A stretch of 64,000 nucleotides of DNA, taken from a bacterium OL-1 (lineage in GTDB: Bacteria; Actinomycetota; Coriobacteriia; Coriobacteriales; Atopobiaceae). The DNA is taken from positions 62,001-126,000 of the forward strand of contig LM994624.1 in assembly GCA_000752675.2 (NCBI GenBank), given 5' to 3'. Positions 8,020 through 57,803 of the stretch are shown one piece after another; position 1 is the first letter of the stretch; each line of letters begins with the position of its first letter. A program made the translations under genes and the position numbers. The notes below the pieces were generated by a model, which was given only the letters and a program-made list of their open reading frames with translations, ran no database searches and had not been told where the DNA came from.

Positions 8020-11000
8020 CTACGCCCTGCGGCGAAGGCGTCCCGCAACCGCAAGGACGGCCCCCGCCGAGAGAAGCGCGCCCAACACCAGCGCCGGGGA
8101 GGTGTCGTCGCCGGTGTTGGGTGTCCCCTGCCCCTTGGACGCGGGATTCGCGGTCCCCGTGCCCAAAGTGGTGCCGGAGGTGTCGTTGTTGCTGCCAGGC
8201 ACGGTCAGGCCAGCGTTACCAGTGTCCGCGCCGCCTTCGGACGGTGCGTGCGTGTCCCCGCCCTCGGCAGGCTCTGCAGGCGCAAGGTCGCGCAATGCGT
8301 TGGCAATGGCAACGCGAGCTGCCTCGATTTCTTCAGCGGTTCCGCTGTCGAGCAGTGCGCGCCCAGCGTCGGCCGCGGCGTCAAGTGCCGCCGCAGAGTC
8401 TGCCGTGTACGCAGCGGAGTCAACGGCCTCCGCCGCAGCAATGGCCTCCCTCAGGGCAACAACGCTCACCAGGTTGGCGCGTGCGTCAATGACGGCCTGG
8501 CCAAGGTCCCGGCTCTGGGCGGGGTCGTGCTCAGCCTTCGCGGTGGCAAGCGCCTGGGCAAACGGGGCCCAGCTTGCAACCGTGTAGTCGTCCTCGGAGA
8601 GGGACTCAGCATCGGCGACAATCGCGTCCAGGTCATACGCGACAAGCGCCGCCTTGGCCTCACGCAGGGCCGCAGTCGCCGTGGCGACCTCTTCGGCCGT
8701 TCCGGCTTCCAGAACGGCTGCGGAGTCGTCGTAGGCCTTCTGGTATGCAGCGTAGCTCTCGGCCGTGTAGCCGCCCGCCGAGGTCTTCCCGAACTCCCCG
8801 CGCTCGGCAACGAGGCCCGCCGCGTCAACGAGCTCCCCCTCGGAGGCGAGAAGCGCGTCAGTTGCGCTCATAAGCTCGCCTGGCGTAGTCGCCTCGTTGG
8901 CAAGTAGCCCTTTGAGCGCCGCAAGCGCGCTATCGTACTGGTCGCGCGTGCTGGTGGTGTAGGCTCCGGGCGAGAAGATCACCTCAGCATCGCGCACCGC
9001 CTGACCGGCGCGGTCTGCACCGGTCTTGTCGAAGGCCAGGGCATCGCGAGCAGCCTTGAGCGACGCGGCGAGCGCGTCGCCGTCCGCCTGCGAAAGATTG
9101 TCCGCCGCCTCGAGGGCAGCGGCCGCCGCGTCATAGGCCTCGGTATAGGCCTGGTAGCTCCCCATGGAGTAGGTTCCGTCGTCGTTGGATACGTGCTCCG
9201 CAACCAGCTCGGGAAGCTCGACCCCCGTATAGCGCTCGACCTTGGCAGCAAGCGCGCTCTCAAGCGACGCCTGGGCTGAATCGACGTAGCTCTGCGTGGC
9301 GTTTGCAGCCTCAAGCGCAGACTTGGCGTTCTCGATTGCCGCCTCGAACGATGCCCTGCTGTCCGACGTCCAGGAGCTCGTGTCGGTGCCCTTAGCGGCG
9401 TTGTAGGCTTCCGTCAGCGCTGCCTTATCGGCAGCCGTTGCCTCTTCAAGTACGAACACTTCGGCTACCTGTGGCTTTGCTCCCTGCCAGGAGACGGTGA
9501 TGTCCTTCACGGCCGAGAATGGCACGGTCCTGGCGGTCGCGGCGCGGGCAAACGTGAACTCGGCGATGGGCTGGTCAAGCCGGCCTAGCTCGATCTTCTC
9601 GGTGTCGTCGTAGGTGTCGCTCGTGTAGACCGTCGCTGTGACGGTGGCGTTGCTCGGCGTGCCGGAGGAAACAATGCGCACGCCCTGCTTGGGGGCACCG
9701 TTAGTGGAGAGCGGCTCAGACACGTGATAGGTCACGCTGCCAGAATCGGACGAGGGCGCCCAGGCTGTGGAGGTCTTGCCGTCAATGAGGTTTGCGGGAG
9801 ACATGCCGGGCTGCTCGACGCTGGTCGAGACCACGTCAGCGTCGCCATACGGGGAGACATACTCGCCACCGTTTATGAGCAGCTCGCCTATCTCGACCCA
9901 GCGCTGGGTGTAGGTGCCGGTAAAGCGGATGCGCACGTAGCGGGCAGTCACATCGAGCTCGTCCGTGCCGTTGGGATCGCTCTGGTTGCCCTGCGTTGCG
10001 GACGTCTTGGGGTTGGCGGTGTACATGTTGCCAGGATTCTGCGAGTCATGCGTGAGCCACGCCGCCGTCTTTGCGGTGCTGGTATCGAACTCGTTGGGAA
10101 CAATCTCGTCACCGTTGATCTTGAGGACAGGAGTCCACTCGGCAGCGCCGGCAGTCCGCGCGACTTCCACGACCGCATTGCGAATATAGTCGAAGCTGGT
10201 CTCGGGCACGTAGTAGGCAATCGAGTGGATAACTCGCTCCTGGCCCAGATCAAAGGTCACCGTGTCGCCCGCGTTGGGCCCATGGTTGTTCTTGTACGTG
10301 GTGGTCACGTTGCCGTCAAAGAGCTTTGCGGCCTCGAAGGCGCCCACGGCACCGGTCTTGCCCACAAACGAGGGCTCGGTCTTTCTCGCATAGCTTGCCG
10401 AGAAGCCCTTGAATGCCACCTGGGCATCCCCCGTGGCGCGAACGCCTACAAAGCGAGCAGCAACAGGCGCTGCGGAGGCATCGAACTCGGTCCACTCGAG
10501 CGCGTTCTGCGAGTACACGAGCGAGGCACCCGCGGGGATAGCGCTCTTACCAGCGTCGATGGTCACGCCGTTGCGCATGGCGCCCAGATCGACAGCCAGG
10601 AAGGAGCCGCCGGCAAAGGCAACGGTCCCGTCGGAGAGCGTCACGGTGCCGTTCTTCGCGGAAGCCGAGAGAGACACGCCCTCTATGTTGGTGCGGATGG
10701 TACCCAGGTTGGTGGGCGTGCCCTTTGACGCGGTGACCTCGTTCAGGACCCACCAGCCATTGGTGTCTCGCGTGGCGCGGATTCGGATGGCCCTTACCTC
10801 GCGCTCGGAGAACTCAAGGGTCTGGCTGGTAGCAGAGGTCACGTCTGCGACCTTCTCCCAGGTGTCCGCGCCCTCGCCCTGGACTTCGAGCACGCCACCC
10901 TCGAGGGTGTCTCCAACACCGCTGCCATTGGGCTTGTTGCCCTGGACAATGCGGACGCTCCCCACACTCTTGGGCTGCGAGAAGGTAATGGTCACCGCGT

Positions 11001-13950
11001 CATTTGCGGCGATGTTCCTGCCAGAGCCCGTACCGGTTGCCCAGAGCGCCGTAGCGTCCTGCCCGTCCACGACGTTAGCCTCGGCGTAGCTCTGATAGCG
11101 AGACATGCCCTCGGAGAGCGTGACCGCAGCCTCTACCTGGGACTCGCTCGCCTCGCCCCTCGTAGCATGAAGCTCGAGCACCTTCCACCACTTCTCGGTC
11201 TTGGCACCGTTCACGACTTTGATGGCCTTGGCCTCCACGGGCGAGGAGAGCGAGATGTTCTGGCTGGGGTCACCGTTCACGTTGCCCACCTCGTGCCACT
11301 GGTCATCTGCGCCCTGGTAGTACGCCATACCGGAGGCAATCGCGTCGCCAGAGTCCTGCTTGAAGACGATGCTCCCAATAGTCTTGGCACCATCGAAGGC
11401 CACTACCACAGCAGCGCCCTCGACGGTGTAGTCCTTGCCCTGCGCATTCTTAAACCATCCGTAGGTGCCATCTTGGGCGTCACTTGCCGAGGTGGGACTG
11501 CCGTAGCCGGTGTCGACCTGGTTCTCGAGCGAGACGGTGCCGGTGTAGACCGCCGGATCCTCGTCTGCCGCCTGGTTGATTGCGATCTCCTTGATGGTGG
11601 GCCAGGCGTCCTTCTCGTTGTCCTGCGTCGCCACGATGCGCACGCCATAAGCGTTGGCAATGCCCAGGCCCTCGGCCTTCACAACCTGGCCCGTCTCGTC
11701 TGTGTGGCCTTCGATGTCATGCCAGGTGGTACCATCGAACCACTGCAGCTTGGCGTGGTCCATGAAGTCCTTGCCATCCCCCTGGGTGAAGCTCACGCTC
11801 TCGAGAGTGAAGGGACGCGTCTTGGTGAGCCCAAAGTAGGTGCCTGCCGTGAGCTTGTTGGGCGACTTGTAGATGACGCTTGTCGAGGTGTCTCCGTCAT
11901 AGGCATTGGAAGTGTCGCCGGCGGGGGCATCGGTGCGGTTGGTCACAAAGCGGGTGATATCGGCGTTGGGGTTGGACGCAAGCTCTGCCTGGTCCGCCAC
12001 GTAGTCTGCCAGGGCATTGACAGTAGGCGTAACGTAGGCCTTGCCCACGCGGGCATACTCGGTGTGGTTCACGTAGTGGTAGCCGTGGCCGTTGGCGGCC
12101 TCCAGGGACGCCGTTGCCGTAGAGTGGTGCGAGAGGAGCCCCGTGGTGTCTCCAGCGAGCTGTGCGCGAAGCGCCGCGAGGTCGGAGAGGGCTGCGGTGG
12201 TGAGGTCCTCCCAGGTCTCGACCCAAGGGCTCATCTGGTTGAGCATGGCCTCATTGCCCGCGTTTGCCTTGTAGTCGCGCGCGGTCTGGCGGAGGTCCGA
12301 GAAGACCTTCTCCATTGCAGCGATGTCATCCGTGGTAACGCTGCCAGCGGAGAGCTTGGCCTGGAAGCTCGTAAGCTGGTCCTTGATGGCCGCCGACTCG
12401 CCGTTCTCCCAGGTGGTGCCGCCGCCGTACATGCGGAGCATGTTGCGGGAGAGCTCGCAGAGCGCGTCGGAGCCCTTGGTGGCAACGGGAGAGTTGTGGT
12501 CGACGTAGGAGTAGGAGTCCTCCCAGGCCTGATCGGCTCGGCCGTAGCCCTGCCACAGGTTCCAGGTGAAGTCCGCGTTCATGAAGATTGCCTGCTTGGA
12601 AGGCTCAGACTGCTGCATGGGGTTGAGTACCACGCCCTCGACGCTGCCGGGGGTAACATCAGAGCCCAGGAAGTTCTGGTAGCCGCCCATGTGCAGGGCG
12701 TCCTTGTCGTTGTCGGAGCAGGGCCAGTTGATCCACATGAAAGGCGAGCGCCCAGAGTTGGCCTTGAAGCGCGTGGCAAAGCCGTTGTCGATCTTGCCCC
12801 ACACCTGGTTGCCGGTGTTGACCACCTGGATGTTCTCAGGGAGGTTGCCGTACCAGGATTCGCCGGCGCCCATGTAGTTGACGGGGCAGAAGATGATTGT
12901 GTCCTTGAGGCCGGGGTACTTAAGCGAGCCGTCCTCGTTGGCAGCCTTCTGCTGGTCGTGAATCCAGGCGGTCATGTCGATGAGGAGCCTGGTGTAGAGC
13001 GCGGAACCCTGGTTGCCCGCGTCGTCGGCGAGAATGGCAATCTGCCGCACGCCGTGGTCCATAACCTGCTGGAACTTTGCCTTAAGGGTGGCTACGGAGC
13101 TGTCGTAGTTGGAGGACGTGATGGGGTTGCTCATGAAGGGGTGAAGCGCGTAGACAAAGCGGCACTTGGAGTCGTTGCCCGCCTTGGCAAGCGGATCGAT
13201 CTTCTCGCGCAGCTCGTCCTCGGTGTAGAGGTCACGCCAGTTGGAGTTGTGCTTGGAATCGTCCTTGGGCGCGTACACGTAGGCGTTGAGCTTGTAGTAG
13301 CCGCCCCAGGTCATGAGGTTCACGCGGTCCTCGGTGCTCCAGGGGTCACCGTAGTAGCCCTCGATGAAGCCGCGGGTCTTAACGTCGGCGTAGTCGCAGA
13401 TGGTAAACGCGCGCAGCGTGGCACCGTCGGTCTGCTGGAGGATCTGGTAGAGCGTCGTGAGGCCGTAGTAGGCCGCGTCGGTGCTGTTGCCCAGCACGAT
13501 CAGCTGGTCGGCGCCGTCGCCAGCGGGAACGGAGGCGAGAAGGTAGGCGTCGGTCTTGTCGAAAAGACCATCAGCTACGGCAAGGGAGCCGGTCTCGACG
13601 AGCTGGTCTACGTAGGCGTCAACGGCACCGCCGGACCCCTTCACGCCCACAAGAATCGAGGTCGTTCCGCGTGACGTGGGCACGGACTCGGAACCAGCAG
13701 CAGTCATGCCCTTGAGCGCGAGAACCTCGGCCAAGCGGGCTTGGGTCTCGGCGTCAATGCCGTCTTCGACAACGGTCGTGACGGTCGAACGCAGGGTCTG
13801 CGTGCCGCCTGCATAGACGACGCTGTGCGGCGTGGGATAGATCTGGTAGGTCTCATCCGCGAGCGCACGCGTGGGGGCAAGGGCGACCCCCGGCACAATA
13901 AGCGCCATGGCGGCGAGAAGGCCCAGCACCCTCGTATGGATTGACCTCAT
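8020..13950 (-). CDS. Secreted wall-anchored GH84 beta-N-acetylglucosaminidase
   Basis: 1976 residues. Signal peptide MRSIHTRVLGLLAAMALIVP ending near TRALA. The GH84 N-domain is followed by the catalytic barrel (GFIEGYYGDPWSTEDRVNLM; LNAYVYAPKDDSKHN) with the substrate-assisted catalytic Asp pair in AILADDAG (about 309-310). A helical GH84 C-domain, at least three F5/8-type (CBM32-like) modules and about five FIVAR-type helical repeats follow. The C-terminus has TPNTGD, a hydrophobic segment and RLRRRA, a sortase signal with Thr instead of Leu. The ATG at 13950 is preferred over the one 15 bases upstream because GGAG lies five bases before it. Relatives include clostridial NagH/NagJ and bifidobacterial enzymes removing GlcNAc from mucin or hyaluronan-type glycans. 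Exact substrate is not decided by sequence. Confidence 0.93.
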   Translation of the reverse strand: MRSIHTRVLGLLAAMALIVPGVALAPTRALADETYQIYPTPHSVVYAGGTQTLRSTVTTVVEDGIDAETQARLAEVLALKGMTAAGSESVPTSRGTTSILVGVKGSGGAVDAYVDQLVETGSLAVADGLFDKTDAYLLASVPAGDGADQLIVLGNSTDAAYYGLTTLYQILQQTDGATLRAFTICDYADVKTRGFIEGYYGDPWSTEDRVNLMTWGGYYKLNAYVYAPKDDSKHNSNWRDLYTEDELREKIDPLAKAGNDSKCRFVYALHPFMSNPITSSNYDSSVATLKAKFQQVMDHGVRQIAILADDAGNQGSALYTRLLIDMTAWIHDQQKAANEDGSLKYPGLKDTIIFCPVNYMGAGESWYGNLPENIQVVNTGNQVWGKIDNGFATRFKANSGRSPFMWINWPCSDNDKDALHMGGYQNFLGSDVTPGSVEGVVLNPMQQSEPSKQAIFMNADFTWNLWQGYGRADQAWEDSYSYVDHNSPVATKGSDALCELSRNMLRMYGGGTTWENGESAAIKDQLTSFQAKLSAGSVTTDDIAAMEKVFSDLRQTARDYKANAGNEAMLNQMSPWVETWEDLTTAALSDLAALRAQLAGDTTGLLSHHSTATASLEAANGHGYHYVNHTEYARVGKAYVTPTVNALADYVADQAELASNPNADITRFVTNRTDAPAGDTSNAYDGDTSTSVIYKSPNKLTAGTYFGLTKTRPFTLESVSFTQGDGKDFMDHAKLQWFDGTTWHDIEGHTDETGQVVKAEGLGIANAYGVRIVATQDNEKDAWPTIKEIAINQAADEDPAVYTGTVSLENQVDTGYGSPTSASDAQDGTYGWFKNAQGKDYTVEGAAVVVAFDGAKTIGSIVFKQDSGDAIASGMAYYQGADDQWHEVGNVNGDPSQNISLSSPVEAKAIKVVNGAKTEKWWKVLELHATRGEASESQVEAAVTLSEGMSRYQSYAEANVVDGQDATALWATGTGSGRNIAANDAVTITFSQPKSVGSVRIVQGNKPNGSGVGDTLEGGVLEVQGEGADTWEKVADVTSATSQTLEFSEREVRAIRIRATRDTNGWWVLNEVTASKGTPTNLGTIRTNIEGVSLSASAKNGTVTLSDGTVAFAGGSFLAVDLGAMRNGVTIDAGKSAIPAGASLVYSQNALEWTEFDASAAPVAARFVGVRATGDAQVAFKGFSASYARKTEPSFVGKTGAVGAFEAAKLFDGNVTTTYKNNHGPNAGDTVTFDLGQERVIHSIAYYVPETSFDYIRNAVVEVARTAGAAEWTPVLKINGDEIVPNEFDTSTAKTAAWLTHDSQNPGNMYTANPKTSATQGNQSDPNGTDELDVTARYVRIRFTGTYTQRWVEIGELLINGGEYVSPYGDADVVSTSVEQPGMSPANLIDGKTSTAWAPSSDSGSVTYHVSEPLSTNGAPKQGVRIVSSGTPSNATVTATVYTSDTYDDTEKIELGRLDQPIAEFTFARAATARTVPFSAVKDITVSWQGAKPQVAEVFVLEEATAADKAALTEAYNAAKGTDTSSWTSDSRASFEAAIENAKSALEAANATQSYVDSAQASLESALAAKVERYTGVELPELVAEHVSNDDGTYSMGSYQAYTEAYDAAAAALEAADNLSQADGDALAASLKAARDALAFDKTGADRAGQAVRDAEVIFSPGAYTTSTRDQYDSALAALKGLLANEATTPGELMSATDALLASEGELVDAAGLVAERGEFGKTSAGGYTAESYAAYQKAYDDSAAVLEAGTAEEVATATAALREAKAALVAYDLDAIVADAESLSEDDYTVASWAPFAQALATAKAEHDPAQSRDLGQAVIDARANLVSVVALREAIAAAEAVDSAAYTADSAAALDAAADAGRALLDSGTAEEIEAARVAIANALRDLAPAEPAEGGDTHAPSEGGADTGNAGLTVPGSNNDTSGTTLGTGTANPASKGQGTPNTGDDTSPALVLGALLSAGAVLAVAGRLRRRA

Positions 13951-13971
13951 CTTCTCTCCTTGCATAGTGAG

Positions 13972-14003
13972 GCGCGCGGGACGAAGCGGGCCATCCCGCG
14001 CGC
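13972..14003 (-). terminator. Hairpin between GH20 and GH84 genes
   Basis: A 10-bp stem GCGCGCGGGA / TCCCGCGCGC with a 12-base loop lies in the 69-base gap. There is no T-tract, so it may be a processing or partial termination site rather than a strong terminator. Confidence 0.55.
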
Positions 14004-14019
14004 ACGGGCTTCCATGCGC

Positions 14020-17000
14020 CTACGAGCGCTTCTTGCGAATCACGATGCCAGCGGCGACAAGTGCTGCCGCAGCAGCCACCAGCAGCGCCACAAACGCCAC
14101 GGGCGGAAGGGCGTCTCCCGCGTTGGGCAGAGAGGAGCCCTTGGATGCCGTTATTCCGGGCGCGGTGGTGCCGGCCGCGGCGGCCTTGTCCGAGGTGGCA
14201 TCCGTACCGGTGGAGGAACCGCCCTCGCTGTTGCCCTGGTTGCTCTGGTTGCCCTGGTTGTCAGGGTTATCGGGCGCCTGGGGGTCAGAGGGGTCGACAG
14301 GATCGCTCGGGGCATCCGGGCCTGCGGGATCAACGGGATCCGAAGGATCGACAGGCGTATCGGGATCCGTGGGGGTGTCGGGGTCGGTGGGTGCGTCGGG
14401 GTCCGTGGGCTCATCCGGGTCGGCAGGATCCACGGGCGTCTCGCCAGCGGGAACAAGCGCAAGCATTGCCGAGCGCAGCGACGCCTTGGCGGCACTTACG
14501 TCCTCGAGCGCGGGTGCGCCAGAGGCCAGCAACTCCTTGGCGGAAGCCATCTCCTGCTGCAGGAGCTTCCAGCCCTCGGCCTCGTAGGCCTTCTCGTCCA
14601 GGCTGCCAGCCTGCTCGACGAGGGCGCTCAGGCCGTCGATGTCGACCGTGATGTCCACGTAGCGAACGCGAATCTCGGCGGCGCTCGCAAACTTGTTCCT
14701 GTTCTGCGCGCTGGTTCCATCGGTGGTGATGAAGTACAGACGCACGTTGGTCACGTTATCCGCAGGGGCATCGAAGGTGATGGTCTTTGCGCCGGTGGAA
14801 GACTCGAGCGTCCCGGAGGCAACGGTCTTGTAGACGGGCTCAGCCGCGCCTTCTGTCGCCGGTGACACGCCATTGTCCTGGGTGCGCACGTCGACGCGGT
14901 ACTGGAGCAGGCGACCGTTCGTCGCGTCGCTGCGCGGCACGTAGACCACGGCATCGACGGTGCGCGGCTGGTCAAGCGCCACGTCGATCCAGTGAGGCAT
15001 GGTGTTGTCGGCTGCCCCCTGCCATTGTGAGTGCCAGAAGCTCCCCTCGTCGCCATCGATGGCGGCAGCGGCAGGCCCGTTGGGCCTGGTCTCCCCGTTG
15101 AGCTCCTCGGAGCAGGCCGTCACACCCGTGAGCTTGGCAAAGAGGTCGCTCGCAGTGCGTGTCTCGAGCCCGTTGATAGCGGCTTGCAGGGACTCTGCAT
15201 AGAGGTCAACGGTCGCCTGCTGGGCCTTGGGAAGACCGCGCACCACATTGTCGCGTGCCGACGTGAGCGCGGCAACGCTCTGGGTGGTGTAGTCGTTCAG
15301 GTCCGCAGGGATAAGGGCGAGAAGTGCGTCAACGCGGGCATAGCTGGCACCCTCGTAGTCAAGCTGAGCAATGCGGGCGTCGAGCTGCTCCTTGAGCGAC
15401 GCCGCCTCGTCGGCCGAGGGGTTAACGGCGTCCACGACCTCACGGGCACGGGCAACCAGCTCTGCGAGCTGGGCGTCGTTTGCCTCCGCAAGGATGCCAG
15501 AGGCCACAACGAGGGACTGGTCAAGCGCCACGGTGCTGGCAAAGCTCGCCGCGCGAGTCAGGCGCACGTTGTCAACGTAACCCTTGGAGGAGTTGGTCTT
15601 GCTGCCAATGCGCTCGACGGGAAACATGCAGGTGGCCTTGAGCTTGGTGTCGGCATCGGTGCCAAGTTGCTCGATAAGCTCGCCGTTCACATAGAGGGAC
15701 ACCTTGTTCTTCTCGTTCTTGAACTCGAGATCGACCCAGGTGCCTACTGGCAGCTCGTAATCGAAGGAGTAATCGTGGTTCTCGCGCGTGATGCCCACCT
15801 TGCCCGTGGAGCCCTGAACAGCCTTGATCTGGCCGTAGTCGCTCTCGAAGAGGACCTGGTCGGAGGTATCGGGGCTTGTGCGCTTGACCTTCACGCGCAG
15901 GTCGTTGCCAAGGCCGGCGGTCTTGAGCGTGGAGTCCTCGCTCACGCTCACGTAGCTCTGGCCACCCTCGAGCGAGAGGGCCTTGACGCCATCAATGGTG
16001 ACGAGCCGGGCGTTTGCGCCCTTGGCCAGGTCGTTTCCGTTACCCGAGGCATCCGAGAGGTCGTCCAGGCTCCAATGCGCGATCACACCGTCCTCGTTGG
16101 CTGTGGTCTCATAGCCAAAGTCGGTCTGCGGGGCCGCGCCCACAGATGCCACCGCCGCACGAGCAGTGGCAAGGTCGCGCGAGCCCTTGCCCCACGCCGC
16201 AGAGGCGTAGAGACCGGCGGACTGGTCGATGAGCTGGTAGACGTCGAACTGTGAGACGCCGTTCTCGCGCTTGCCGCACATGTCATTCCACACGGCAAAG
16301 GACCCGCCCAGCATCTGGGCGTCACCCGCAGGGATGGTCACGTTGCCCATGGTGTTGATGGCCCCGTTGTAGACGGTGTTGGCGTCGAGCCCGGTGCTGT
16401 GGTAGTAGCCACCGTTGGGCACGATGTAGTACTTGGAGTCGAGGGAGTCGATAAGGCCAAAGCCAAGGTCGTACATCTCCTTGGCGTCCGCCCAGCCAGT
16501 GCTCCAGATGTTCATCTCACGGCGCTCGCCGTTGGGGCCCGTGCCAGAGACCGCCACGGAGCCCTTGATGTGGGTGAGGCTGCCCCACACGCGAGCGGTA
16601 CGACCGGAGTCCTCGGCATAGGTGAACAGGTCGTTCACGAAGGTGCGGTACGCGTCGCCATTGGCCTCGAACTCGTCCGCGCCAATATGGATGGTGGTCT
16701 GGGCATCAAAGACGGGGTTTTCGCCCGTGGTGTACTCGTCCCAGATGGAGAGCGCAAAGGCGAGGGAGTCGTCGTACTTGTCGCCAAGGAGGTTGAGGTG
16801 GTCGTTGCCGCGGCGCGTGGCCGAGGTGGGAGTACGCAGGTCGGGGCGCACCTTGGTGAGCGCCAGCGAGTGGGCCGGCATGTCGAACTCGGGGACCACG
16901 TTCACGCCCATGGCGCGGGAGTCCGTGATGAACTGGCGGAACTCGTCCTTGGTGTAGAAGACGTCCGTCGAGGTGAGGTCGGCCTTGTTGAGGCCACCGT

Positions 17001-18972
17001 TGCCGCCTGCCTTGACGTCTGACTCCAGGCGGAAGCCCGAGTAGGCCTGGTCGATGGTCTCGTTGGTGTACTCCTCGACCCAGATGTAGTTGTCTGAGAG
17101 GTGCACCTGGAAGTCGTTCATCTTGTACCAGGAGAGCTCTTGGGACATCTGGCGCAGCCAGTCCATCGAGAAGGTCTTGCGTCCCACGTCCAGGATGAGA
17201 CCGCGCACCTTGTAGAGCGGGTAGTCGCGGGCGGTGCCGCAGGCGATGGTGCCGTTGCCCGAGGACTTGAGTGCCTGAAGGATGGTGCGGGTGGACCAGT
17301 AGGAACCGGTCTGGGTGCAGGCGGTGGTCACGACCTTGTCGGTGACCTCCATGAGATAGCCCTCATCCTGGAGACCCAGGGACTCGTCGGAAGTGAGAGC
17401 GAGAACAACGTCGCCCGCCCCAGCGGTGGAGGCGTCTCCCCTCTCGACGGATAGCTTGCCGCCAAAGAGGTCGGCGTAGTCTGCCGCGAGCGCCTCGGCG
17501 GTGGACCTGAGGGAGTCGTCCGCGTAGAGCACCCGAGAACCCATGGCGAAGGAGCCCGTTGTTCCCTTCCACTCGCGGAGCTCGGGAACAACGGTGGGCG
17601 CGGGGTTGTCGCCGGCGGCCTTCTGGTAGGCGCCAGGCACGGTGATGGTGAACTCCTTGAACTGGTAGTCGCCCGTCTCCTTGTTGGTGGCCTTGAAGGA
17701 GACCTTCACCTGGGTGTCAACAACGGGCTGGTAGATGGGGATGTTGCCGCTCTCGTCCTGCGCACCTATGACCTGCTCGTAATCGGTGCCGTTGTAGGCG
17801 GCCTCGATCTTCTCGGAGGCGGGGATGGTCACCTTGAGCGTGGTGTCGCCCTTCTTGGGTGCCTCCACCTCGATAGCGTCGAGCATGCCCTGCACGGTGT
17901 CCGTTGTAGCAGTGGGCTCGCCGCCATAGACCTCCATCTCGTAGAGAGACACGGTACCCCAGGCGGCACCGCCGTCGGGGTCCGCGTGGGTGCTGCCGGT
18001 GATGAGCAGGCGGACGAAGCGAGCCTGCTTGACCTCGTCGAGCCTGATGGTGTCGGTGGTGCTTTCGGGATGGCCGTCCTTGGTGTAGACGTCGGTCCAT
18101 CCGTCATCGGTGGCGGGGGCCGTCTCACCCGTGGCAATCTGGAGCTTGTAGCCGGTGGGCTTACGCTGCTCCCAGTAGAGCCTCACGGTCTTAACGTTGC
18201 GAAGCTGTCCCAGATCCACGTAAATCCAATGGGAGGTGTTCTCGGGGTCGTCCGAATTTGCGCTTGCCCAACGGCTAGCTTTGGTCGAGGTGTCGCCGTC
18301 GAAGGCCTTGTCTGCAGTGAACTGCGTGCCGGACTCGACGCTGTCTGCCTGGGCACTCTTGCCCTCGGCGACGTTGGCCGAGGGGTCCTGCGGCGCCGCA
18401 AGCTGGTGGTCGAAGACCTCGAGCTCGTAGATGGAGACGGTATCCCACTCCACGCCGCCGTCGGGGTCCGTCGCGGTGAAGGAGTCTATGTAGAGACGCA
18501 CGTAGCGGGCTCTGACAGCGTTCGTGAGGTTGATCACGTCCGTTGTCGACGCGGGTCTGTCGGAGGAGACGTGGGCGTTCTTCCAAGCATCGCTTGCGAC
18601 ACCCGGAGCAGTCTCTCCGGTTGCGTACTGAATCCGGTAGGCCGTGGCCTTGCGGTTCTCCCAGAAGACCTTCACTGACGCAACGTTCTTCTCGGCACCA
18701 AGGTCCACGTAGATCCAGTGGGCCCCGCCGCCTGAGTCACGGTCGCTTCCCCACCTGGAGGTGCGACTGGTCTCGTCACCATCCGTGGCGTTTGAGGCGC
18801 GTACAGAGTCCGCCTCCTGGCTGTCGGCAACGGCAGTCTTGTTGAGCGCAAGGTCATCGCTGGGTGCAGCGGCCATCGCACGCACCGGAAGCAGCGCGAG
18901 CTGTGCGATGAGCGCGAGAAGCACGCAGGCGAGAAGCACCGCGCGCGCACGCGATTGGTAATGCCTGTCCAT
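14020..18972 (-). CDS. Secreted wall-anchored GH20 hexosaminidase or lacto-N-biosidase
   Basis: 1650 residues from the ATG at 18972, which has AGGAG five bases upstream. Order: signal peptide (to about AMAA), two F5/8 modules (about 40-350), an Ig-like segment, GH20b and the GH20 barrel (VRGLILDVGRKTFSMDWLRQ; VVPEFDMPAHS), with the catalytic Asp-Glu pair in IHIGADEFE (about 766-767). A LamG-like domain (HWSLDDLSDASGNGNDLAKG), FIVAR helices, another F5/8 module and a Pro/Asp repeat linker follow. The anchor is LPNAGD, a hydrophobic stretch and RKKRS. GH20 enzymes use the substrate acetamido group and release GlcNAc, GalNAc or lacto-N-biose. The architecture recalls bifidobacterial lacto-N-biosidase, but the specificity is inferred. 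It lies between GH2 and GH84 genes in the same direction. Confidence 0.92.
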   Translation of the reverse strand: MDRHYQSRARAVLLACVLLALIAQLALLPVRAMAAAPSDDLALNKTAVADSQEADSVRASNATDGDETSRTSRWGSDRDSGGGAHWIYVDLGAEKNVASVKVFWENRKATAYRIQYATGETAPGVASDAWKNAHVSSDRPASTTDVINLTNAVRARYVRLYIDSFTATDPDGGVEWDTVSIYELEVFDHQLAAPQDPSANVAEGKSAQADSVESGTQFTADKAFDGDTSTKASRWASANSDDPENTSHWIYVDLGQLRNVKTVRLYWEQRKPTGYKLQIATGETAPATDDGWTDVYTKDGHPESTTDTIRLDEVKQARFVRLLITGSTHADPDGGAAWGTVSLYEMEVYGGEPTATTDTVQGMLDAIEVEAPKKGDTTLKVTIPASEKIEAAYNGTDYEQVIGAQDESGNIPIYQPVVDTQVKVSFKATNKETGDYQFKEFTITVPGAYQKAAGDNPAPTVVPELREWKGTTGSFAMGSRVLYADDSLRSTAEALAADYADLFGGKLSVERGDASTAGAGDVVLALTSDESLGLQDEGYLMEVTDKVVTTACTQTGSYWSTRTILQALKSSGNGTIACGTARDYPLYKVRGLILDVGRKTFSMDWLRQMSQELSWYKMNDFQVHLSDNYIWVEEYTNETIDQAYSGFRLESDVKAGGNGGLNKADLTSTDVFYTKDEFRQFITDSRAMGVNVVPEFDMPAHSLALTKVRPDLRTPTSATRRGNDHLNLLGDKYDDSLAFALSIWDEYTTGENPVFDAQTTIHIGADEFEANGDAYRTFVNDLFTYAEDSGRTARVWGSLTHIKGSVAVSGTGPNGERREMNIWSTGWADAKEMYDLGFGLIDSLDSKYYIVPNGGYYHSTGLDANTVYNGAINTMGNVTIPAGDAQMLGGSFAVWNDMCGKRENGVSQFDVYQLIDQSAGLYASAAWGKGSRDLATARAAVASVGAAPQTDFGYETTANEDGVIAHWSLDDLSDASGNGNDLAKGANARLVTIDGVKALSLEGGQSYVSVSEDSTLKTAGLGNDLRVKVKRTSPDTSDQVLFESDYGQIKAVQGSTGKVGITRENHDYSFDYELPVGTWVDLEFKNEKNKVSLYVNGELIEQLGTDADTKLKATCMFPVERIGSKTNSSKGYVDNVRLTRAASFASTVALDQSLVVASGILAEANDAQLAELVARAREVVDAVNPSADEAASLKEQLDARIAQLDYEGASYARVDALLALIPADLNDYTTQSVAALTSARDNVVRGLPKAQQATVDLYAESLQAAINGLETRTASDLFAKLTGVTACSEELNGETRPNGPAAAAIDGDEGSFWHSQWQGAADNTMPHWIDVALDQPRTVDAVVYVPRSDATNGRLLQYRVDVRTQDNGVSPATEGAAEPVYKTVASGTLESSTGAKTITFDAPADNVTNVRLYFITTDGTSAQNRNKFASAAEIRVRYVDITVDIDGLSALVEQAGSLDEKAYEAEGWKLLQQEMASAKELLASGAPALEDVSAAKASLRSAMLALVPAGETPVDPADPDEPTDPDAPTDPDTPTDPDTPVDPSDPVDPAGPDAPSDPVDPSDPQAPDNPDNQGNQSNQGNSEGGSSTGTDATSDKAAAAGTTAPGITASKGSSLPNAGDALPPVAFVALLVAAAAALVAAGIVIRKKRS

Positions 18973-19060
18973 GTGGGCTCCTGTCCTTCCTGGTCTGGCA
19001 GGGGTTTGGTGCAGCAACGTGATTGCGTTGGCCAAATGGCGGGGTAGCCAACGGTCACAA

Positions 19061-19088
19061 GGGAGGGCGCCCGAAAAGGCGCCCTCCC
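19061..19088 (-). terminator. Hairpin after the GH2 gene
   Basis: An 11-bp stem (19061-19071 with 19078-19088) with a six-base loop CGAAAA. On the minus strand it is followed by TTGTG, a weak T-tract. It lies 20 bases past the GH2 stop. Confidence 0.6.
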
Positions 19089-19107
19089 AAGGTTGGGGGG
19101 GCAGAAA

Positions 19108-22100
19108 CTAGCGGCGCCTTCTCCAGGCGACGGCTCCGGCTGCCACGCCGAACGTGCCAAGCGCGCCGAGAAGGCCCGCAAGGGAGGCGGGATCGCCAGC
19201 GTTGGGAATCTGACTGGCCTGGGGCTTGTTGGGTACAGGCTTGTCTCCGGAGGCAGCGGGGCTGCCGCTTACGTCCTGGTTGCCGGCGTCGGGGGTCGTC
19301 GAGCCAGAGTCCTCGGGGGACGCGGGGTCGCCGGGGCCAGCGGGATCAGTTGGGCTGCTTGGGTCAGACGGGTCGCCGGGGTCCACAGGGTCGGCGGGGT
19401 CCACAGGGTCGACGGGGTCGACAGGGTCGACGGGGTCGACGGGAGCCGCATCCTCAACCCTCACGTCAAAAGTCCCCTCGTGCCCCTGGTAGGTCACGGT
19501 CACCTCGAGGCTCGCCGCCTCGGCCAGCCCAGCGTCCAGGGACGGGTCGAACGAGAAGGCCGACGCGTTGTCTGCCCCGTAGGCCACCTCGGTCGTGGTG
19601 CCGTCGCTCCAGGAGAGCTCGAGGACCAGGCCGGAGGGATCGAGCTTCTCGCCCACCTTGTAGATGCTCTTGGTGGGGCCAGACTTGACGGCAATGCCCT
19701 GCAGCGTTGGCGCTGCCACGTTGATGGTGGTCGTTCCCTCCACGGTGCCGGAGTAGTCGCCAATGCCCTCCACTGTGACCGTGGTCTTGCCGGGCTGCGC
19801 GGCGTTTGCAATGCTCACGAGGTAGTCGATGCCATAGGTGAGCTCGCCCTGCTCGCCTGTGACTTTGACGCTGAGGTCGGTAGGAGTCACGGGATGCTCT
19901 GCGTCAACGCGCTCGACAGTCACGCTGGCGGGGATCGCGACCGTGATGCCGTTCTCAACCTTGGAGATGTCGGTAGTCTGGGCGGCGGTGCGAAGGCGAA
20001 TCTCGCTGGCGCTCATGAACTTGTCGTTGCCGGAGTCGCCATAGGTGTGCACCGCCTTAAGACGGAAGTGCTTAGCGGTGGTGGGCTGGTCAAGCGTCGC
20101 AATCTGCCAACCACCGGTGTAACCGGCGTCCACAGGAGACTCCCAAGTACCGCTGCCAACGTTCTCCCACGTCTGGCCGTCGTCGCTCGCCTGGACCAGG
20201 TACCCCGTCACAGTGCCATTCTTGCCGTTGGCCTGGCGAGGCAGGTAGCGCACGGCCTCGACGGTTGCTGGCTCGGCAAGCTCCATGGCAATCCACAGCT
20301 GGTCAAAGGATGCAAAAGGGCTCCACTCGGAGTGATAGTGCGTGCCGGGCTCGCCGTCGAAGGCAAGCTCGACCGGCCCCTCGTTGCCAGACCCCGCATG
20401 CGCGCTGCCAGTAGTGGGCGTGATGTTCTCAACCGGATAGTCGTGGGAGTCGTCCTCGGGCGCAAGACCGGCATCCTCCGCGGGCGCCGCGAGGTTGATC
20501 GTGAAGACGGAGCGCGTGGCGTGGTCCTCGGACTCGAGAATGATGTTCACGCGGTTCTGGAATGCCGGCAGAACGGTGATGGCCGCGTTGTCCAAGGGCC
20601 TGGCATCAACCGTTGCGGAGAGGGCGCGCGTGGAGTAGCTGCCGCTGGCAAGCGCCGCAGAGCTCACCTGCTTGCCGTTGACGGAAAGGCTCTCTAGCTC
20701 AGCGGCGGTGTTTGTCGTAAAGCTTCCCTTTGCCTCGAAGAGCTGGATCTCTGTCACGCAAGTGCAGGGCTTTGCCTTGCTCGCCAGCGTCTTGTCGACG
20801 TTGGTGAAGGTGAACCTCACAAAGGTCGCGAGCGTGGGCTCGAAGTCGTAGGCGTAGGGCTTCACGCGGCCGCTCTGGGCGCCAATGGTCTCCTGCGTGG
20901 CAACCGGGCGCCAGTCCTTGCCGTCCTCGGAGACCTCGACCTTGGTGGTTCCGGCGTCGGGGAAGCAGGCAGACCACGAGTCGTCGACAAAGTAGATTAC
21001 GGCGCGGCCCAGGCGCTGCTGCGTGTTGTAGTTGAAGGTAATGCTTGATGTGGTGTTGCCCTCCTGGGCGTATGCGTAGTTGGACCAGCAGCTGGGGTTC
21101 GCGCTTCCGTCGCCCGGGGCATGCGTGGTAACGCCATCGTTGACGGCAGAGAGCGTGTCGGACTGTTTGCCCTCGGGCACGCTCTGCGAGAGGCTCATGA
21201 GCGCACCGGAATTGGCGACGTTGTCACCTATCGTCAGGGTCTCGCTCTGCACGCGGACGGTGGCGGTGACGGTCATGTCCTTGCCAAAGACGTTGGCGGT
21301 TCCCTCGATGGTCACGGTGCCGGCAGCGTCATAGGCACTCGCCGCAGGCTCCGCCCACTTCACGGGGAAGCTTGCGTTGAGAACGCTGCCGTCGGCCATG
21401 GCCGCCGGTCGCGATTCCGGCAGGATCGCCGGGGTTCCCACCGGCGTAGTGGTTGAGTAGTTGAGAAGAGCTGCAACCTCGTCGAGAACGGTGACGGTGC
21501 AGGAGACCCTGATGCCATCCACCTCGCCGGCAACCTGGAAGGTTCCCGGCGCAGAGAGCGCCTCATTGCTCACGTTGTCCCAGGTAACGGCCTTGTTCTC
21601 GGCTGTTCCGTCCGTGTAGCGCACCTCAATCTGCTCGGGAAGCGCAAGCGAGGTGCCCGTCTTCACGTAGTGGAAGCGGGAGTAGCGCAGGCTCGAGACG
21701 GTCCTCTCGGCAGGCGCGTCGCCCGTGCCAACGGAGGAGATCGTGACGCTCGCGGACTGGAGGCCGTCGGAGGTCACCTTGACCGTAATGTCACCAGAAC
21801 CCGTGGCGCGGACGATGCCCACGAGCTGTCCGGCCCAGGCATTGCGATTGTCATCGCGGTAGGACTGGTGGTCGGGAGAGGAGCCGTTATCCACGCCCGC
21901 CAGTTCGCCGGCGCCCGTGACCTCGAACTTCACGTTGTTCTGCGCGTCGGGGACAACGTTGCCGTCCTTGTCCTTGACGCCCACAGTGACGTAGGCAAGG
22001 TCGCCGTTGGCAGAGACCTGCACGCGGTCCACAGTGGCCTCGAGCTGGGTTGCCGCGCTGGTAGTGGTCACGCTCTGGCGGCCGTCCCAGTCCGCGGTCG

Positions 22101-24489
22101 AGAGTTCCTGACCGTTCTCGTCATATGCCTTTGCCCAGATGGTGCCGTCCGCATAGGGGACGCTCCAAGAGAGGTAGAGGTTCTCGTGGTTGGTGTTGCT
22201 CTTGTCGGCACCCTCGTAGACCTGGTAGGTGTAGCCGGCATCGGTGGCCTTCTTGGTGAACTTCTTCTTGCCGAGCGACTGGGCCTGGGTGGACCCGGCG
22301 GGCGTGAAGAAGAGCTCGACCTCGGGGGCGTCGGTGTAGACCACAACCTTCACGTTGTTCCCAGTCTTCTTCACCATGTCGCTCTCCCATGCGGGGAGGA
22401 CGTGGAGGGTGTGGACCGAGTCGTTCCACTGGCTCTGGTAGAGGTAGTAGGAGTCCTTGGGCAGACCCGCGGTGTCGATGATGCCAAAGTAGGAGTTCTT
22501 GGGAGCGATGCTCCAGTCTCCGCCCTGCGTGCCGGGGGCGGTGCCGTTCCACGGGGTGGGTTCGCCCAGGTAGTCGAAGCCCGTCCAGACGTACTCGCCG
22601 GCAACGAAGTCGCGAGTGATCGTGTCGAACCAGGCTTTTGCAGCGACGTGTCCCCAGCCGACGGCCGAGGTGTCGTACGAGGTCAGCTGGTGACCGCCAG
22701 CGTCGGTTTGGCTCCCCAGCGTGTTGTACACACCACGGCTGTTGACGGCCGAGGCGGTCTCCGAGCCGTAGAACTTCCACTCCCGGTGCTCGCGGTGCAG
22801 GCGGTCGTACATGCTGCCGTCGGCGTAGTTGATGCCCGTGAGGCCACCTGCCGCGAAGATGTTCTGCGGGCCGTAGGCGGTGCTGCCACTCTTGAGCTGG
22901 TTGTCGCCAAGCGTGACTGGGCGGGTGGGGTCGGCCTCAGTGGTCCACCTTATTAGGCTTGCCTGCGCTGCGGCGTCAAAGCCCGCCGAGGAGCCCGTGG
23001 TCATCTCGTTGCCCACAGACCACATGATCACGGAAGGTGAGTTGAAGTCGCGGGCAATGGTCTGCTTGAGGTCGAACTCTGCCCAGGTCTCCCAGGCGGT
23101 GGCACCAAGGATCCGTGACTCTCCGATGGTCTGGTTAAAGAAGCGGGCGTAGTCATTGCTGTTGCCGTTCTTGGCCGCGGTCCAGCCGTCAAAGACCTCC
23201 TCGTCCAGCAGGATGCCTTGCTCCTGGCAGACCTCGACCAGTACGCGCGACGGGCTGTTGTGCGAGGTGCGAATGGAGTTGCAGCCCATCTCCTTGAGGA
23301 TTCTCACCTGGCGCTCGACAGCCGCACGGGAATCCACGGAACCCAAGGCGCCCTGGTCCTGGTGCATGCAGACGCCCTTGATCTTGACGTTCTGGCCGTT
23401 GAGCGAGAAGCCCGTGTTGGCATCGTAGTTGAACCAGCGGTAGCCATAGGTAGTGTCATAGGTGTCCACGGTCTGGCCGTCCACCTTTACCTCGGTTCGC
23501 ACCGTATAGAGGTTGGGGGACTCGGTGGACCAGAGGCTGGGGTTTGCTGCTTCGAGCTGGGACTCGATGGTCTTTGTCTCCCCTGCAGCAAGCGTTTGCG
23601 GCTGGGTGGTAATGGAACCGATGGCCTGCTCAGGGCTGCCGTCCTTGGGGAAGACCGTCTGGCTAAGCGACACGGCGACGTCTGCGTCACCGCTGTTAGA
23701 GACGGTGGACGAGAGCTTGGTGGTAACGGCGCCGCTGCTCTGCGCCTGGAGGTCCGGCGAGGTCACACGCACGCCGTCCTTGGCCACGGCGACCTTGCCG
23801 GTCACCACGAGGTCCACGTTGCGGCCAATGCCCGAGCCAGAGTACCAACGGCTCGAGGGCGTCTGGTGGTTGACCTTCACGGTGATGACGTTCTCCTCGC
23901 CCGCCTTGAGGTAGGGTGTGAGGTCAAACGAGAAGGGCGTGTAGCCGTAGGGGTGGTTGCCCAGCTGCGTCCCGTTGATCCATACCGTGGTATCCATGTA
24001 GACGCCATCGAAGTCGATGCGCACCTGCTTGCCTGCGAGGGCCTGGTCCACGTAGAAGCTCTTGCGGTACCAGCCTACGCCGCCAGGCTTGTAGGCGCTC
24101 TCTGCCTCCATGGAGGGCGAGTAGTCCTGGTCGATGCTGTAGTCGTGGGGCAAGGTGACGTACTCCCAGGTGGAGTCGTCAAAGGCCTGGGCCTCAGCAC
24201 CGCTGGCGTCGCCCAGGTAGAACTTCCAGTTGTCGTTGAAGCTCTGGGTGCGAATACCTGTGTCGCTGATGTTGTTAACGTAAACAACTTCCGGCACAGA
24301 AGACATCTGCATGGAGGACTGGGAGCGTACCTCGGGTGTGTCAGCGGTACCTTCCGCAATGGCAGCGACGGGCGTCGCAGAGAGAATCATTGCCCCCGTG
24401 GCAAGCGCGCAGAGCGCCCTTCGTATTCCGAGAGAGATGTACCACCTTCCACCTCGTGTTCGTTTAGCCGAGCACGTGCCTACAGTCAT
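19108..24489 (-). CDS. Secreted wall-anchored GH2 beta-galactosidase
   Basis: 1793 residues. A long signal peptide has a basic n-region and WYISLGIRR, reminiscent of YSIRK-type signals. The GH2 sugar-binding domain (YKPGGVGWYRKSFYV), Ig-like domain and barrel follow. The acid/base is Glu495 in MWSVGNEMTTG and the probable nucleophile Glu577 in FYGSETASAVNSRGVYN, with the family signature GEYVWTGFDYLGEPTPW. Downstream are bacterial Ig-like domains, two F5/8 modules, a Big_3-like domain and a DPVDPVDP-rich wall-spanning linker. The anchor is IPNAGD plus a hydrophobic segment and RRRR. The ATG follows GGAGG by seven bases. It probably removes terminal beta-galactose from mucin or milk glycans ahead of the GH20 and GH84 enzymes. 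Confidence 0.93.
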   Translation of the reverse strand: MTVGTCSAKRTRGGRWYISLGIRRALCALATGAMILSATPVAAIAEGTADTPEVRSQSSMQMSSVPEVVYVNNISDTGIRTQSFNDNWKFYLGDASGAEAQAFDDSTWEYVTLPHDYSIDQDYSPSMEAESAYKPGGVGWYRKSFYVDQALAGKQVRIDFDGVYMDTTVWINGTQLGNHPYGYTPFSFDLTPYLKAGEENVITVKVNHQTPSSRWYSGSGIGRNVDLVVTGKVAVAKDGVRVTSPDLQAQSSGAVTTKLSSTVSNSGDADVAVSLSQTVFPKDGSPEQAIGSITTQPQTLAAGETKTIESQLEAANPSLWSTESPNLYTVRTEVKVDGQTVDTYDTTYGYRWFNYDANTGFSLNGQNVKIKGVCMHQDQGALGSVDSRAAVERQVRILKEMGCNSIRTSHNSPSRVLVEVCQEQGILLDEEVFDGWTAAKNGNSNDYARFFNQTIGESRILGATAWETWAEFDLKQTIARDFNSPSVIMWSVGNEMTTGSSAGFDAAAQASLIRWTTEADPTRPVTLGDNQLKSGSTAYGPQNIFAAGGLTGINYADGSMYDRLHREHREWKFYGSETASAVNSRGVYNTLGSQTDAGGHQLTSYDTSAVGWGHVAAKAWFDTITRDFVAGEYVWTGFDYLGEPTPWNGTAPGTQGGDWSIAPKNSYFGIIDTAGLPKDSYYLYQSQWNDSVHTLHVLPAWESDMVKKTGNNVKVVVYTDAPEVELFFTPAGSTQAQSLGKKKFTKKATDAGYTYQVYEGADKSNTNHENLYLSWSVPYADGTIWAKAYDENGQELSTADWDGRQSVTTTSAATQLEATVDRVQVSANGDLAYVTVGVKDKDGNVVPDAQNNVKFEVTGAGELAGVDNGSSPDHQSYRDDNRNAWAGQLVGIVRATGSGDITVKVTSDGLQSASVTISSVGTGDAPAERTVSSLRYSRFHYVKTGTSLALPEQIEVRYTDGTAENKAVTWDNVSNEALSAPGTFQVAGEVDGIRVSCTVTVLDEVAALLNYSTTTPVGTPAILPESRPAAMADGSVLNASFPVKWAEPAASAYDAAGTVTIEGTANVFGKDMTVTATVRVQSETLTIGDNVANSGALMSLSQSVPEGKQSDTLSAVNDGVTTHAPGDGSANPSCWSNYAYAQEGNTTSSITFNYNTQQRLGRAVIYFVDDSWSACFPDAGTTKVEVSEDGKDWRPVATQETIGAQSGRVKPYAYDFEPTLATFVRFTFTNVDKTLASKAKPCTCVTEIQLFEAKGSFTTNTAAELESLSVNGKQVSSAALASGSYSTRALSATVDARPLDNAAITVLPAFQNRVNIILESEDHATRSVFTINLAAPAEDAGLAPEDDSHDYPVENITPTTGSAHAGSGNEGPVELAFDGEPGTHYHSEWSPFASFDQLWIAMELAEPATVEAVRYLPRQANGKNGTVTGYLVQASDDGQTWENVGSGTWESPVDAGYTGGWQIATLDQPTTAKHFRLKAVHTYGDSGNDKFMSASEIRLRTAAQTTDISKVENGITVAIPASVTVERVDAEHPVTPTDLSVKVTGEQGELTYGIDYLVSIANAAQPGKTTVTVEGIGDYSGTVEGTTTINVAAPTLQGIAVKSGPTKSIYKVGEKLDPSGLVLELSWSDGTTTEVAYGADNASAFSFDPSLDAGLAEAASLEVTVTYQGHEGTFDVRVEDAAPVDPVDPVDPVDPVDPADPVDPGDPSDPSSPTDPAGPGDPASPEDSGSTTPDAGNQDVSGSPAASGDKPVPNKPQASQIPNAGDPASLAGLLGALGTFGVAAGAVAWRRRR
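19379..19441 (-). repeat. 9/18-bp tandem repeats in the GH2 wall-spanning linker
   Basis: Repeated units of the type GGGTCGACA / GGGTCGACG encode (D-P-V)n residues. Such runs can change copy number by slippage and so alter linker length. Confidence 0.8.
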
Positions 24490-35410: not shown

Positions 35411-35452
35411 GCGGGCAAAAGTAAACGTGAGCTTTGGGGCCCAAAAGTGCAT

Positions 35453-35686
35453 CGAACTCACCTTCGTTACACAGAACCGGGGTCTCCATGCATCGAAATG
35501 GCCTTCGTTACACCCAGTTTTTGTGATGAAGTAATTAGGCTTCCTATATCTTGTGCTATATAAAACTTTTAACATCAATATGTTGTGTGTCAAATGGCTT
35601 CATACTTGGACATTCGCCAATATTACGTGTAACGAAGGCGAGTTCGGCGCAACGAAGCCAATTCTTGTGTAACGAAGGTGAGTTCG
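35453..35686. repeat. Paired inverted repeat element A
   Basis: Two direct copies of a 21-bp unit (35453-35473 and 35494-35514, 41 apart) face two inverted copies (35626-35646 and 35666-35686, 40 apart) across an AT-rich core of ~110 bases. The outermost copies (core CTCACCTTCGTTACACA) are identical in inverse orientation; inner copies diverge. The core has no convincing reading frame. See element B at 55921-56166. Confidence 0.85.
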
Positions 35687-35802
35687 GCGCAACGCGCGAC
35701 CGTCTACACGGCGCACCGCTCGCTTCCAAGGCCCAACATTGGGGGCGCCGGCCCCACATGCCGCGCATACAATGAAACGAGTCACAACCACGGGAGGTAC
35801 CC

Positions 35803-55895: not shown

Positions 55896-55920
55896 ATTTG
55901 CATCGAACTCGGCTCCGTTA

Positions 55921-56166
55921 CATAAAAAGCCTCTATCGGACGGAATTCTTGCTGTCCCCGCATAAAAAGCCTCTATCGGACGGCAGCAACGTTCGCTCGA
56001 AATCAAACTATTAACTACATTTTCAAAATTTTGCAATTTTAGACGATTATATCCAGAACCATGTATGTTTATTTAGATGCTTGATGTTTCGGCTCCAAGG
56101 CGGCCGTCCGATAGAGGCTTTTTATGCAACGGCATCGATTTGACCGTCCGATAGGGCGTTTTTGTG
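55921..56166. repeat. Paired inverted repeat element B
   Basis: Two direct copies of a 23-bp unit containing AAAAAGCCTCTATCGGACGG (55921-55943, 55961-55983) face two inverted copies (56104-56126, 56144-56166) across a 120-base AT-rich core. Both pairs have a 40-base period. Inner copies are identical; the right outer copy is degenerate. The sequence just before it (55900-55924) matches the start of element A at 21 of 25 bases. Confidence 0.88.
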
Positions 56167-56224
56167 CAAGAACCACACGCAGCACGTATGGAAGGCCCCA
56201 GCATTAGCCCGCCAACGACCAGGC

Positions 56225-57205
56225 TTACATCGTGGTGCCGAACAGCCTTTCGCACAAATCTCGGCGCCGGGCGAGCATGTTCGCGTTCATGGGGTTGCGA
56301 CGAATACCAAGTTGTTGCTCGAGCTCAGCAGTAAATGCATTGAGCGCTTCCCCGTTCTTAAGAATGCCATTTGTAAGAGTCATTACCTTATAACCCATGG
56401 CTTCCAGAGTCGCACGACGACGCTCGCCTTTCGTCTTTTGGCTTGAATTGAGGTGGTTGTCGTCGCTGTCATATTCGCAGGCGACTCTAGCGTTCTTCCA
56501 ACAGAAGTCTGGCTTAATGGAACGCTGGCCTGCGAGGGGCCAGTACTCCTGAGGCACGAGTAATTTCCGATTCATCTCAAATCCGCCAAGGCCCGCACCG
56601 CCGCTTGGCCTTCCCAACTGGAAGTAGATTGCGATGTCGGTTTCGCGAGGAGAATTTGAATCGGGGACAGCAATTTGCAGTGCGTCGCTTGCTCCCGTTG
56701 CCCCGCGAACTCGGAGCGCACGGGCAGCCGATATGTATTCTCGACACTCAGCGTAGCTTACAAGTGGGTCAACATCCCAAACAACGCCCTCATCTGTCCA
56801 CGGAACCAAGCCGTATGTCCCCATAAGCTCACAGGCAACTTGCGCCAGAGATACCGTATCGAGGGTAAGGCCGAGCTGAGCAATCACCACAGGGGCTCGG
56901 CATATATAGATGCCATCCCCCGCTTCAATGAGCTGTTTGGACCCAAGAGGTGCTCGCCATTTATGAATGTGTACATTTGCAACGAAGCATCGACCAAAGG
57001 AACCACCAAATACAAGATCTAGGGGCTGATTTTCCTCGCACAGACATAGGTCGCGGGCGCGAGCGACTTGTCGTGTGATATCAAAAGCTCGCGACCCAAA
57101 AGCCGAAGCGATTTCATCCTCGCGCACGGTACCGCCCACGGAACGCGCTGACCGCCAGAAGCGAAGCGCCGAACTCGACCCCACACAGATTGCCTTGGTG
57201 TCCAT
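56225..57205 (-). CDS. DUF559-type (Vsr-like nuclease fold) protein
   Basis: 326 residues. The C-terminal part has PDFCWKNARVACEYDSDDNH, then KTKGERRRATLEAMGYKVMT, the Asp, Glu and Arg-rich pattern of DUF559/Vsr-type PD-(D/E)XK proteins. The N-terminal half is unlike known domains, though actinobacterial relatives often carry AbiEi-like regulator domains there. GGGGAGG lies five bases before the ATG. ATTAC-ATCAA-GTAAT (57261-57275) is a palindrome near its promoter. Lower GC than the neighbours and adjacency to element B suggest an accessory insertion. Function unknown; defence is possible. Confidence 0.7.
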   Translation of the reverse strand: MDTKAICVGSSSALRFWRSARSVGGTVREDEIASAFGSRAFDITRQVARARDLCLCEENQPLDLVFGGSFGRCFVANVHIHKWRAPLGSKQLIEAGDGIYICRAPVVIAQLGLTLDTVSLAQVACELMGTYGLVPWTDEGVVWDVDPLVSYAECREYISAARALRVRGATGASDALQIAVPDSNSPRETDIAIYFQLGRPSGGAGLGGFEMNRKLLVPQEYWPLAGQRSIKPDFCWKNARVACEYDSDDNHLNSSQKTKGERRRATLEAMGYKVMTLTNGILKNGEALNAFTAELEQQLGIRRNPMNANMLARRRDLCERLFGTTM

Positions 57206-57770: not shown

Positions 57771-57803
57771 ACTGAGTTCAAATATTGTAAGCGTACGAGC
57801 CTA

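Follow-up and report, generated by a model that had tools for sequence, protein, structure and literature searches.

A probable two-part system of dispersed four-site DNA elements and a linked DUF559/Vsr-like protein in Atopobiaceae

In RAYT/REPIN systems, a long-kept nuclease gene adjoins a copy of its repeat, many small palindromic copies are found in intergenic regions, the repeat and the protein diverge together, and the copies persist over the long term (PMC2817692, PMC8049555). The sites of Noc and SlmA are sparse around the terminus (PMC4726725). The pairing of a single-copy nuclease with its dispersed repeats has been described chiefly for RAYT/REPIN. If an independent case with an unrelated protein and unrelated DNA were at hand, the question of why bacteria keep repeat populations would become testable by comparison, and many natural protein-site pairs with different specificities would be useful for studies of the recognition of 25-bp sites by nuclease-fold proteins. 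Here, paired repeats were examined in a 64,000-nucleotide stretch of DNA (the window; positions 62001-126000 of contig C8) from a genome (G000) placed in the Tractidigestivibacter/Olsenella group (Coriobacteriia), the positions of which are given by contigs C2, C8, C9 and C10.

Two elements of common build were found in the window (Table 1), each with two 25-bp units about 40 bp apart, an AT-rich core and two inverted units facing the first pair. Element A spans 35448-35691 and the B element 55919-56168. An earlier note on this DNA had described the first as two direct and two inverted copies around an AT-rich core, and this was borne out, with periods of 41 bp on the left and 40 bp on the right; the outer 21 bp, said to be identical in inverse orientation, are exact reverse complements (35453-35473 and 35666-35686). 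The reported recurrence of the layout with a different unit also held, as four B units were located at the second site, which had a four-site score of 132 compared to at most 74 in the shuffled window. The 'matching entry sequence' of this second site is explained by a relic A-type outer unit, read as such because an intact A element starts at the same point in related species. By inspection, the A unit (TGCATCGAACTGCCCTTCGTTACAC) and the B unit (TGCATAAAAATGCTCTATCGGACGG) look like diverged forms of a single unit. The two instances were to be regarded as chance or unrelated if further copies were lacking. When searched genome-wide, a degenerate A pattern gave 42 matches (0 for the reversed control) and a B pattern 45 (0 for the control); thus, further copies exist, the paired repeats are real and chance is ruled out. 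Elsewhere in the window, 8020-24489 holds three consecutive ORFs of great length (1981, 1671 and 1793 aa) on the minus strand.

Table 1. Features of the A element, the B site and the linked gene in the window.
Feature	Position	Strand	Basis
A element, outer left unit R1 (TGCATCGAACTCACCTTCGTTACAC)	35448-35472	+	
A element, inner left unit R2	35489-35513	+	
A element, AT-rich core, 113 bp	35514-35626	.	
A element, inner right unit R2'	35627-35651	-	
A element, outer right unit R1'	35667-35691	-	
Relic A-type outer unit, remnant where the B allele took the place of an A element	55899-55923	+	alignment to same-site A elements of related species
B element, outer left unit R1 (unit consensus TGCATAAAAATGCTCTATCGGACGG)	55919-55943	+	
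B element, inner left unit R2	55959-55983	+	
B element, AT-rich core	55984-56103	.	
B element, inner right unit R2'	56104-56128	-	
B element, outer right unit R1'	56144-56168	-	
Linked gene P0001, 326 aa, DUF559/Vsr-like PD-(D/E)XK protein; stop codon 57 bp from the B element	56225-57205	-	

By pattern and model searches, 12 A-type and 11 B-type elements were detected in the genome that contains the window. All 23 were intergenic and were found in all four gene orientations, as judged by a simple codon-usage gene finder. Their neighbours were unrelated housekeeping genes in every orientation, and a regulon was rejected on these grounds. The A units of this genome were all within elements of ~240 bp, one relic excepted; named relatives with A units were Tractidigestivibacter and Olsenella, and no A units were found in the viral contigs searched. 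The architecture of the elements is conserved. Among 85 elements measured in five genomes, 78 had a spacing of exactly 40 bp on both sides, and the R2-to-R2' distance was 138-141 bp for A and 144-146 bp for B. One B element (L039, G000:C2:460770-461058) carries a third right-hand unit, which is an exact 40-bp tandem duplication, and one A element of G005 (L158:1985-2065) has an internal deletion that brings its left units next to the outer right end, and seems to be a copy in decay. In some A cores (e.g., L015, L045 and L016), the centre was CCCAGGTAGA-like and not, as usual, ACAACATGTTGT-like, which would fit variation among core modules. A copy of the C10 element with its flanking genes was detected at ~99% identity in a genome of another family (L059 and L086; G034:C86, about 9.6-9.8 kb), probably as a result of contamination or misbinning.

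Mirrored units, R2 and R2' above all, were more alike within an element than in shuffled pairs, and directly repeated units had a weaker within-element likeness in A and C. The likeness of mirrored units could equally reflect a symmetric complex, hairpins or conversion between the arms. A hairpin-only function was judged unlikely, as the A and B spacers do not pair, though the mirrored units co-vary. This co-variation would also be compatible with a structured RNA, an option raised by the earlier note, or with a terminator or transcriptional regulatory element, and RNA folding of the strand is favourable (z -7.5), as expected for any long palindrome. By contrast, the spacers of A and B are non-complementary, the orientation of the neighbouring genes is arbitrary, promoter or terminator signals in the element were not above chance, and an Rfam search at gathering and permissive settings gave no match at the element. 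An RNA or regulatory role is thus very unlikely.

Orthologous A elements differed at 10.2% of positions in the units, compared to 24.6% in the spacers, 22.0% in the cores and 24.4% in the near flanks. The units therefore evolve ~2.4 times slower than spacers and flanks (0.10 vs. 0.245) and are held by selection in place. For all 23 elements of the genome under study, an element occupies the matching position in one or more of G001, G003 and G005, the match for the window's A element being by one flank only. This conservation of units at orthologous sites across species weighs against MITE-like, non-autonomous copies of an ordinary transposon, which would be dispersed and intergenic, occur in more than one family and have inverted ends, as the TGCA...TGCA of both A and B. 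A copy with a transposase between its arms was not found in this genome or in a non-exhaustive search of others, and the whole element is a palindrome, present on a single side of the linked gene. A MITE origin is thus improbable, and for the MITE/REPIN-like option of the earlier note a plain MITE is not supported, given that no parent transposon was found and the copies stay at the same sites across species. By eye, no target-site duplication was evident at the A copies, and an empty site was not encountered.

Elements have also switched type at the same locus. Five loci whose flanks are orthologous on either side (the window B site, L010, L015, L036 and L038) had an A element in certain species and a B element in others, and most of the intergenic stretch differed at these switched loci. 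In the left flank of the window B site, conservation extends into an A-type R1, and homology resumes near 57803, revealing that element and gene were swapped as one cassette. A and B alleles have been exchanged, and the close relatives G001 and G002 hold the A and B allele, respectively. Identity between G000 and G005 at this site was 99.6% over 3.3 kb compared to a flank average of 92.7%, which suggests a recent exchange. The share of elements was found to track the resident allele, with an A/B ratio of 31/20 in the presence of the A gene and 30/67 in the presence of the B gene (Fisher p = 8e-4, shared descent ignored). Elements left without their cognate gene by an allele swap would be expected to decay, but A elements were not significantly more decayed in genomes with the B gene.

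The gene swapped with the B element, P0001, is the key to the elements, a connection that the earlier note did not make. Its product matched DUF559 (PF04480) at 17.7 bits, below the Pfam gathering cut-off of 20.6; DUF559 matches were obtained for 8 of 22 clade members at E up to 1 (best, 1.3e-5), and no transposase family matched the clade protein. Homologues at ~35% identity or more were detected in four genera by a family-wide search, and the clade formed a supported branch (100/99) with one gene per genome in the listed carriers. Gene and element are linked: a four-site element (score 93-139) was located just 3' of the stop codon in each of the 36 assessable clade genes, which represent four genera, compared to scores of at most 76 in 5'-side control stretches of the same size. 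The clade gene L242, which ends at a contig edge, is outside these 36. The distance from stop codon to element was -7 to +85 bp, with the exception of the truncated gene L244 (G007:C7:94972-95850), which is broken by stop codons after ~243 aa and retains a B-like element. At 20 further loci, the element was present in all six inside the clade (L271 and L272 by relaxed scan only) and in none of 14 paralogues outside it, a control that was slightly less sensitive since these were scanned at stricter, fixed 40-bp settings.

Residues E188, D233, E244 and H251 were invariant in 22 sequences and are taken by us, from knowledge of the fold, to form the active site. This invariance is in line with a predicted active PD-(D/E)XK nuclease. 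A structure model of the protein was poor (mean pLDDT 47, from a two-row alignment), and its weak fold matches to I-Bth0305I and TnsA are a hint only; a sequence search of solved structures with the protein gave no match. The divergence of protein and unit is correlated, as unit similarity rose with protein similarity (Mantel rho 0.30; 4 of 5000 permutations). Linked and dispersed elements were of the same unit type in G000, G003, G004, G005, G074, G129 and G132, with G116 as an exception in which the dispersed type differs from the linked one. Nuclease residues, lineage-specific units and the swapping of divergent alleles would all be expected of a self-marking or defence system, in which DNA that bears the elements would be spared by the nuclease or would block it, and the species-specific units would mark DNA as self. 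Matches to known defence families were weak only, however, and we regard such a role as unlikely. No relatives of the protein were detected in viral contigs.

In other Atopobiaceae genera, the four-site build was kept with different unit sequences. The A model gave weak matches in G023, G074, G116, G129 and G132, and the B model gave none outside the genus. By inspection, the units were TGCGCAGAAGTGGCCTTCGTGCGAG in G023, TGCATGAAACTCGCCTTCGTGCGAC in G074 and TGTGCAAAAGTGGCGTTCGTGCCAC-like in G129, G116 and G132. Overall, genomes carried about 10-26 copies of about 210-265 bp. For G023, ~26 elements were detected, despite which no clade gene was found in its 6-contig assembly. Among 25 parsed G023 elements, the R2-R2' spacing was 118, 148-150 or 159 bp, which steps by whole helical turns (Rayleigh R 0.96 at 10.5 bp, for copies that may share descent). 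Dispersed loci common to several genera were not found, weak single-flank matches aside.

The positions of the elements on the chromosome were compared to that of the terminus, as inferred from GC skew and parS only. In the genome under study, a parS-like cluster is on C8 and a GC-skew flip on the 692-kb contig C10, which holds one of the 23 elements. The G023 origin was located near 1.89 Mb (parS and a parA/parB-yidC-rnpA-rpmH block), with a same-sign skew flip near 0.74-0.84 Mb, and none of its 26 elements was within 190 kb of the terminus antipode. Combined over the two genomes, the depletion had a p of about 3e-4 by a test picked after seeing the data; a mean-distance test in G023 was weak (p = 0.04). 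Thinning near the terminus, as for Noc and SlmA sites, would be expected if the elements were chromosome-organising or nucleoid-occlusion-like sites, that is, fixed platforms for which the linked protein is a DNA-bound marker and not a mobiliser. Conservation of units in place, unrelated neighbours in every orientation and a copy number of about 13-26 also favour this possibility. By contrast, nuclease residues are kept in the protein, the loci are not clearly common to genera, and the terminus was placed by indirect means. A role of this type is a tentative reading, and it is compatible with the explanation that follows.

Based on sequence comparison, the DUF559/Vsr-like PD-(D/E)XK nuclease-type protein and its cognate dispersed elements probably form a two-part system. 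The linked protein would recognise the 25-bp unit, and four sites in fixed helical phase may allow both arms to be joined across the core in one complex. Rare nuclease-dependent copying or replacement could seed new copies, which may be retained because of a benefit from the bound element, in line with a proposal made for RAYT/REPIN. The suggestion in the earlier note of a REPIN-like element, or of sites for a recombinase or nucleoid protein, thus pointed in the right direction in so far as the element is dispersed and a nuclease-like gene is linked to it. In the open-access literature searched, neither these elements nor a DUF559 protein paired with dispersed repeats of its own were found to be described. 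With considerable reservation, we propose that an undescribed chromosomal system of Atopobiaceae may be at hand, in which nuclease-fold protein and four-site elements would co-evolve as allelic specificity pairs, bound elements would serve chromosome organisation or division timing, and sites would be re-coded when the allele changes.

This system was not filed under a known family because two defining features of RAYT are absent and the design of Noc and SlmA sites is different. Similarly to RAYT/REPIN, a gene has its own repeat alongside, palindromic copies of the linked type are dispersed, and both diverge jointly and persist. By contrast, the protein here is DUF559/Vsr-like in place of an IS200/IS605-type HUH tyrosine transposase; four 25-bp units are arranged within about 210-265 bp, compared to two short hairpins in a REPIN; and the element is downstream of the gene only, with none in the upstream controls, whereas a RAYT gene is flanked by two inverted REPs. 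The elements are short, non-coding and intergenic with inverted ends, as are MITEs, but differ in that a parent transposon was not found, target duplication was not evident by eye and selection acts on the units at fixed sites. Like the sites of Noc and SlmA, they number in the tens, are specific and seem to be thin near the terminus; those sites, however, are single short palindromes read by ParB-type or TetR-type proteins, compared to compound four-site elements and a nuclease-type protein here. The protein itself resembles DUF559/Vsr-like endonucleases, including EDxHD homing endonucleases, in its conserved PD-(D/E)XK-type residues and in its weak fold matches to I-Bth0305I and TnsA.
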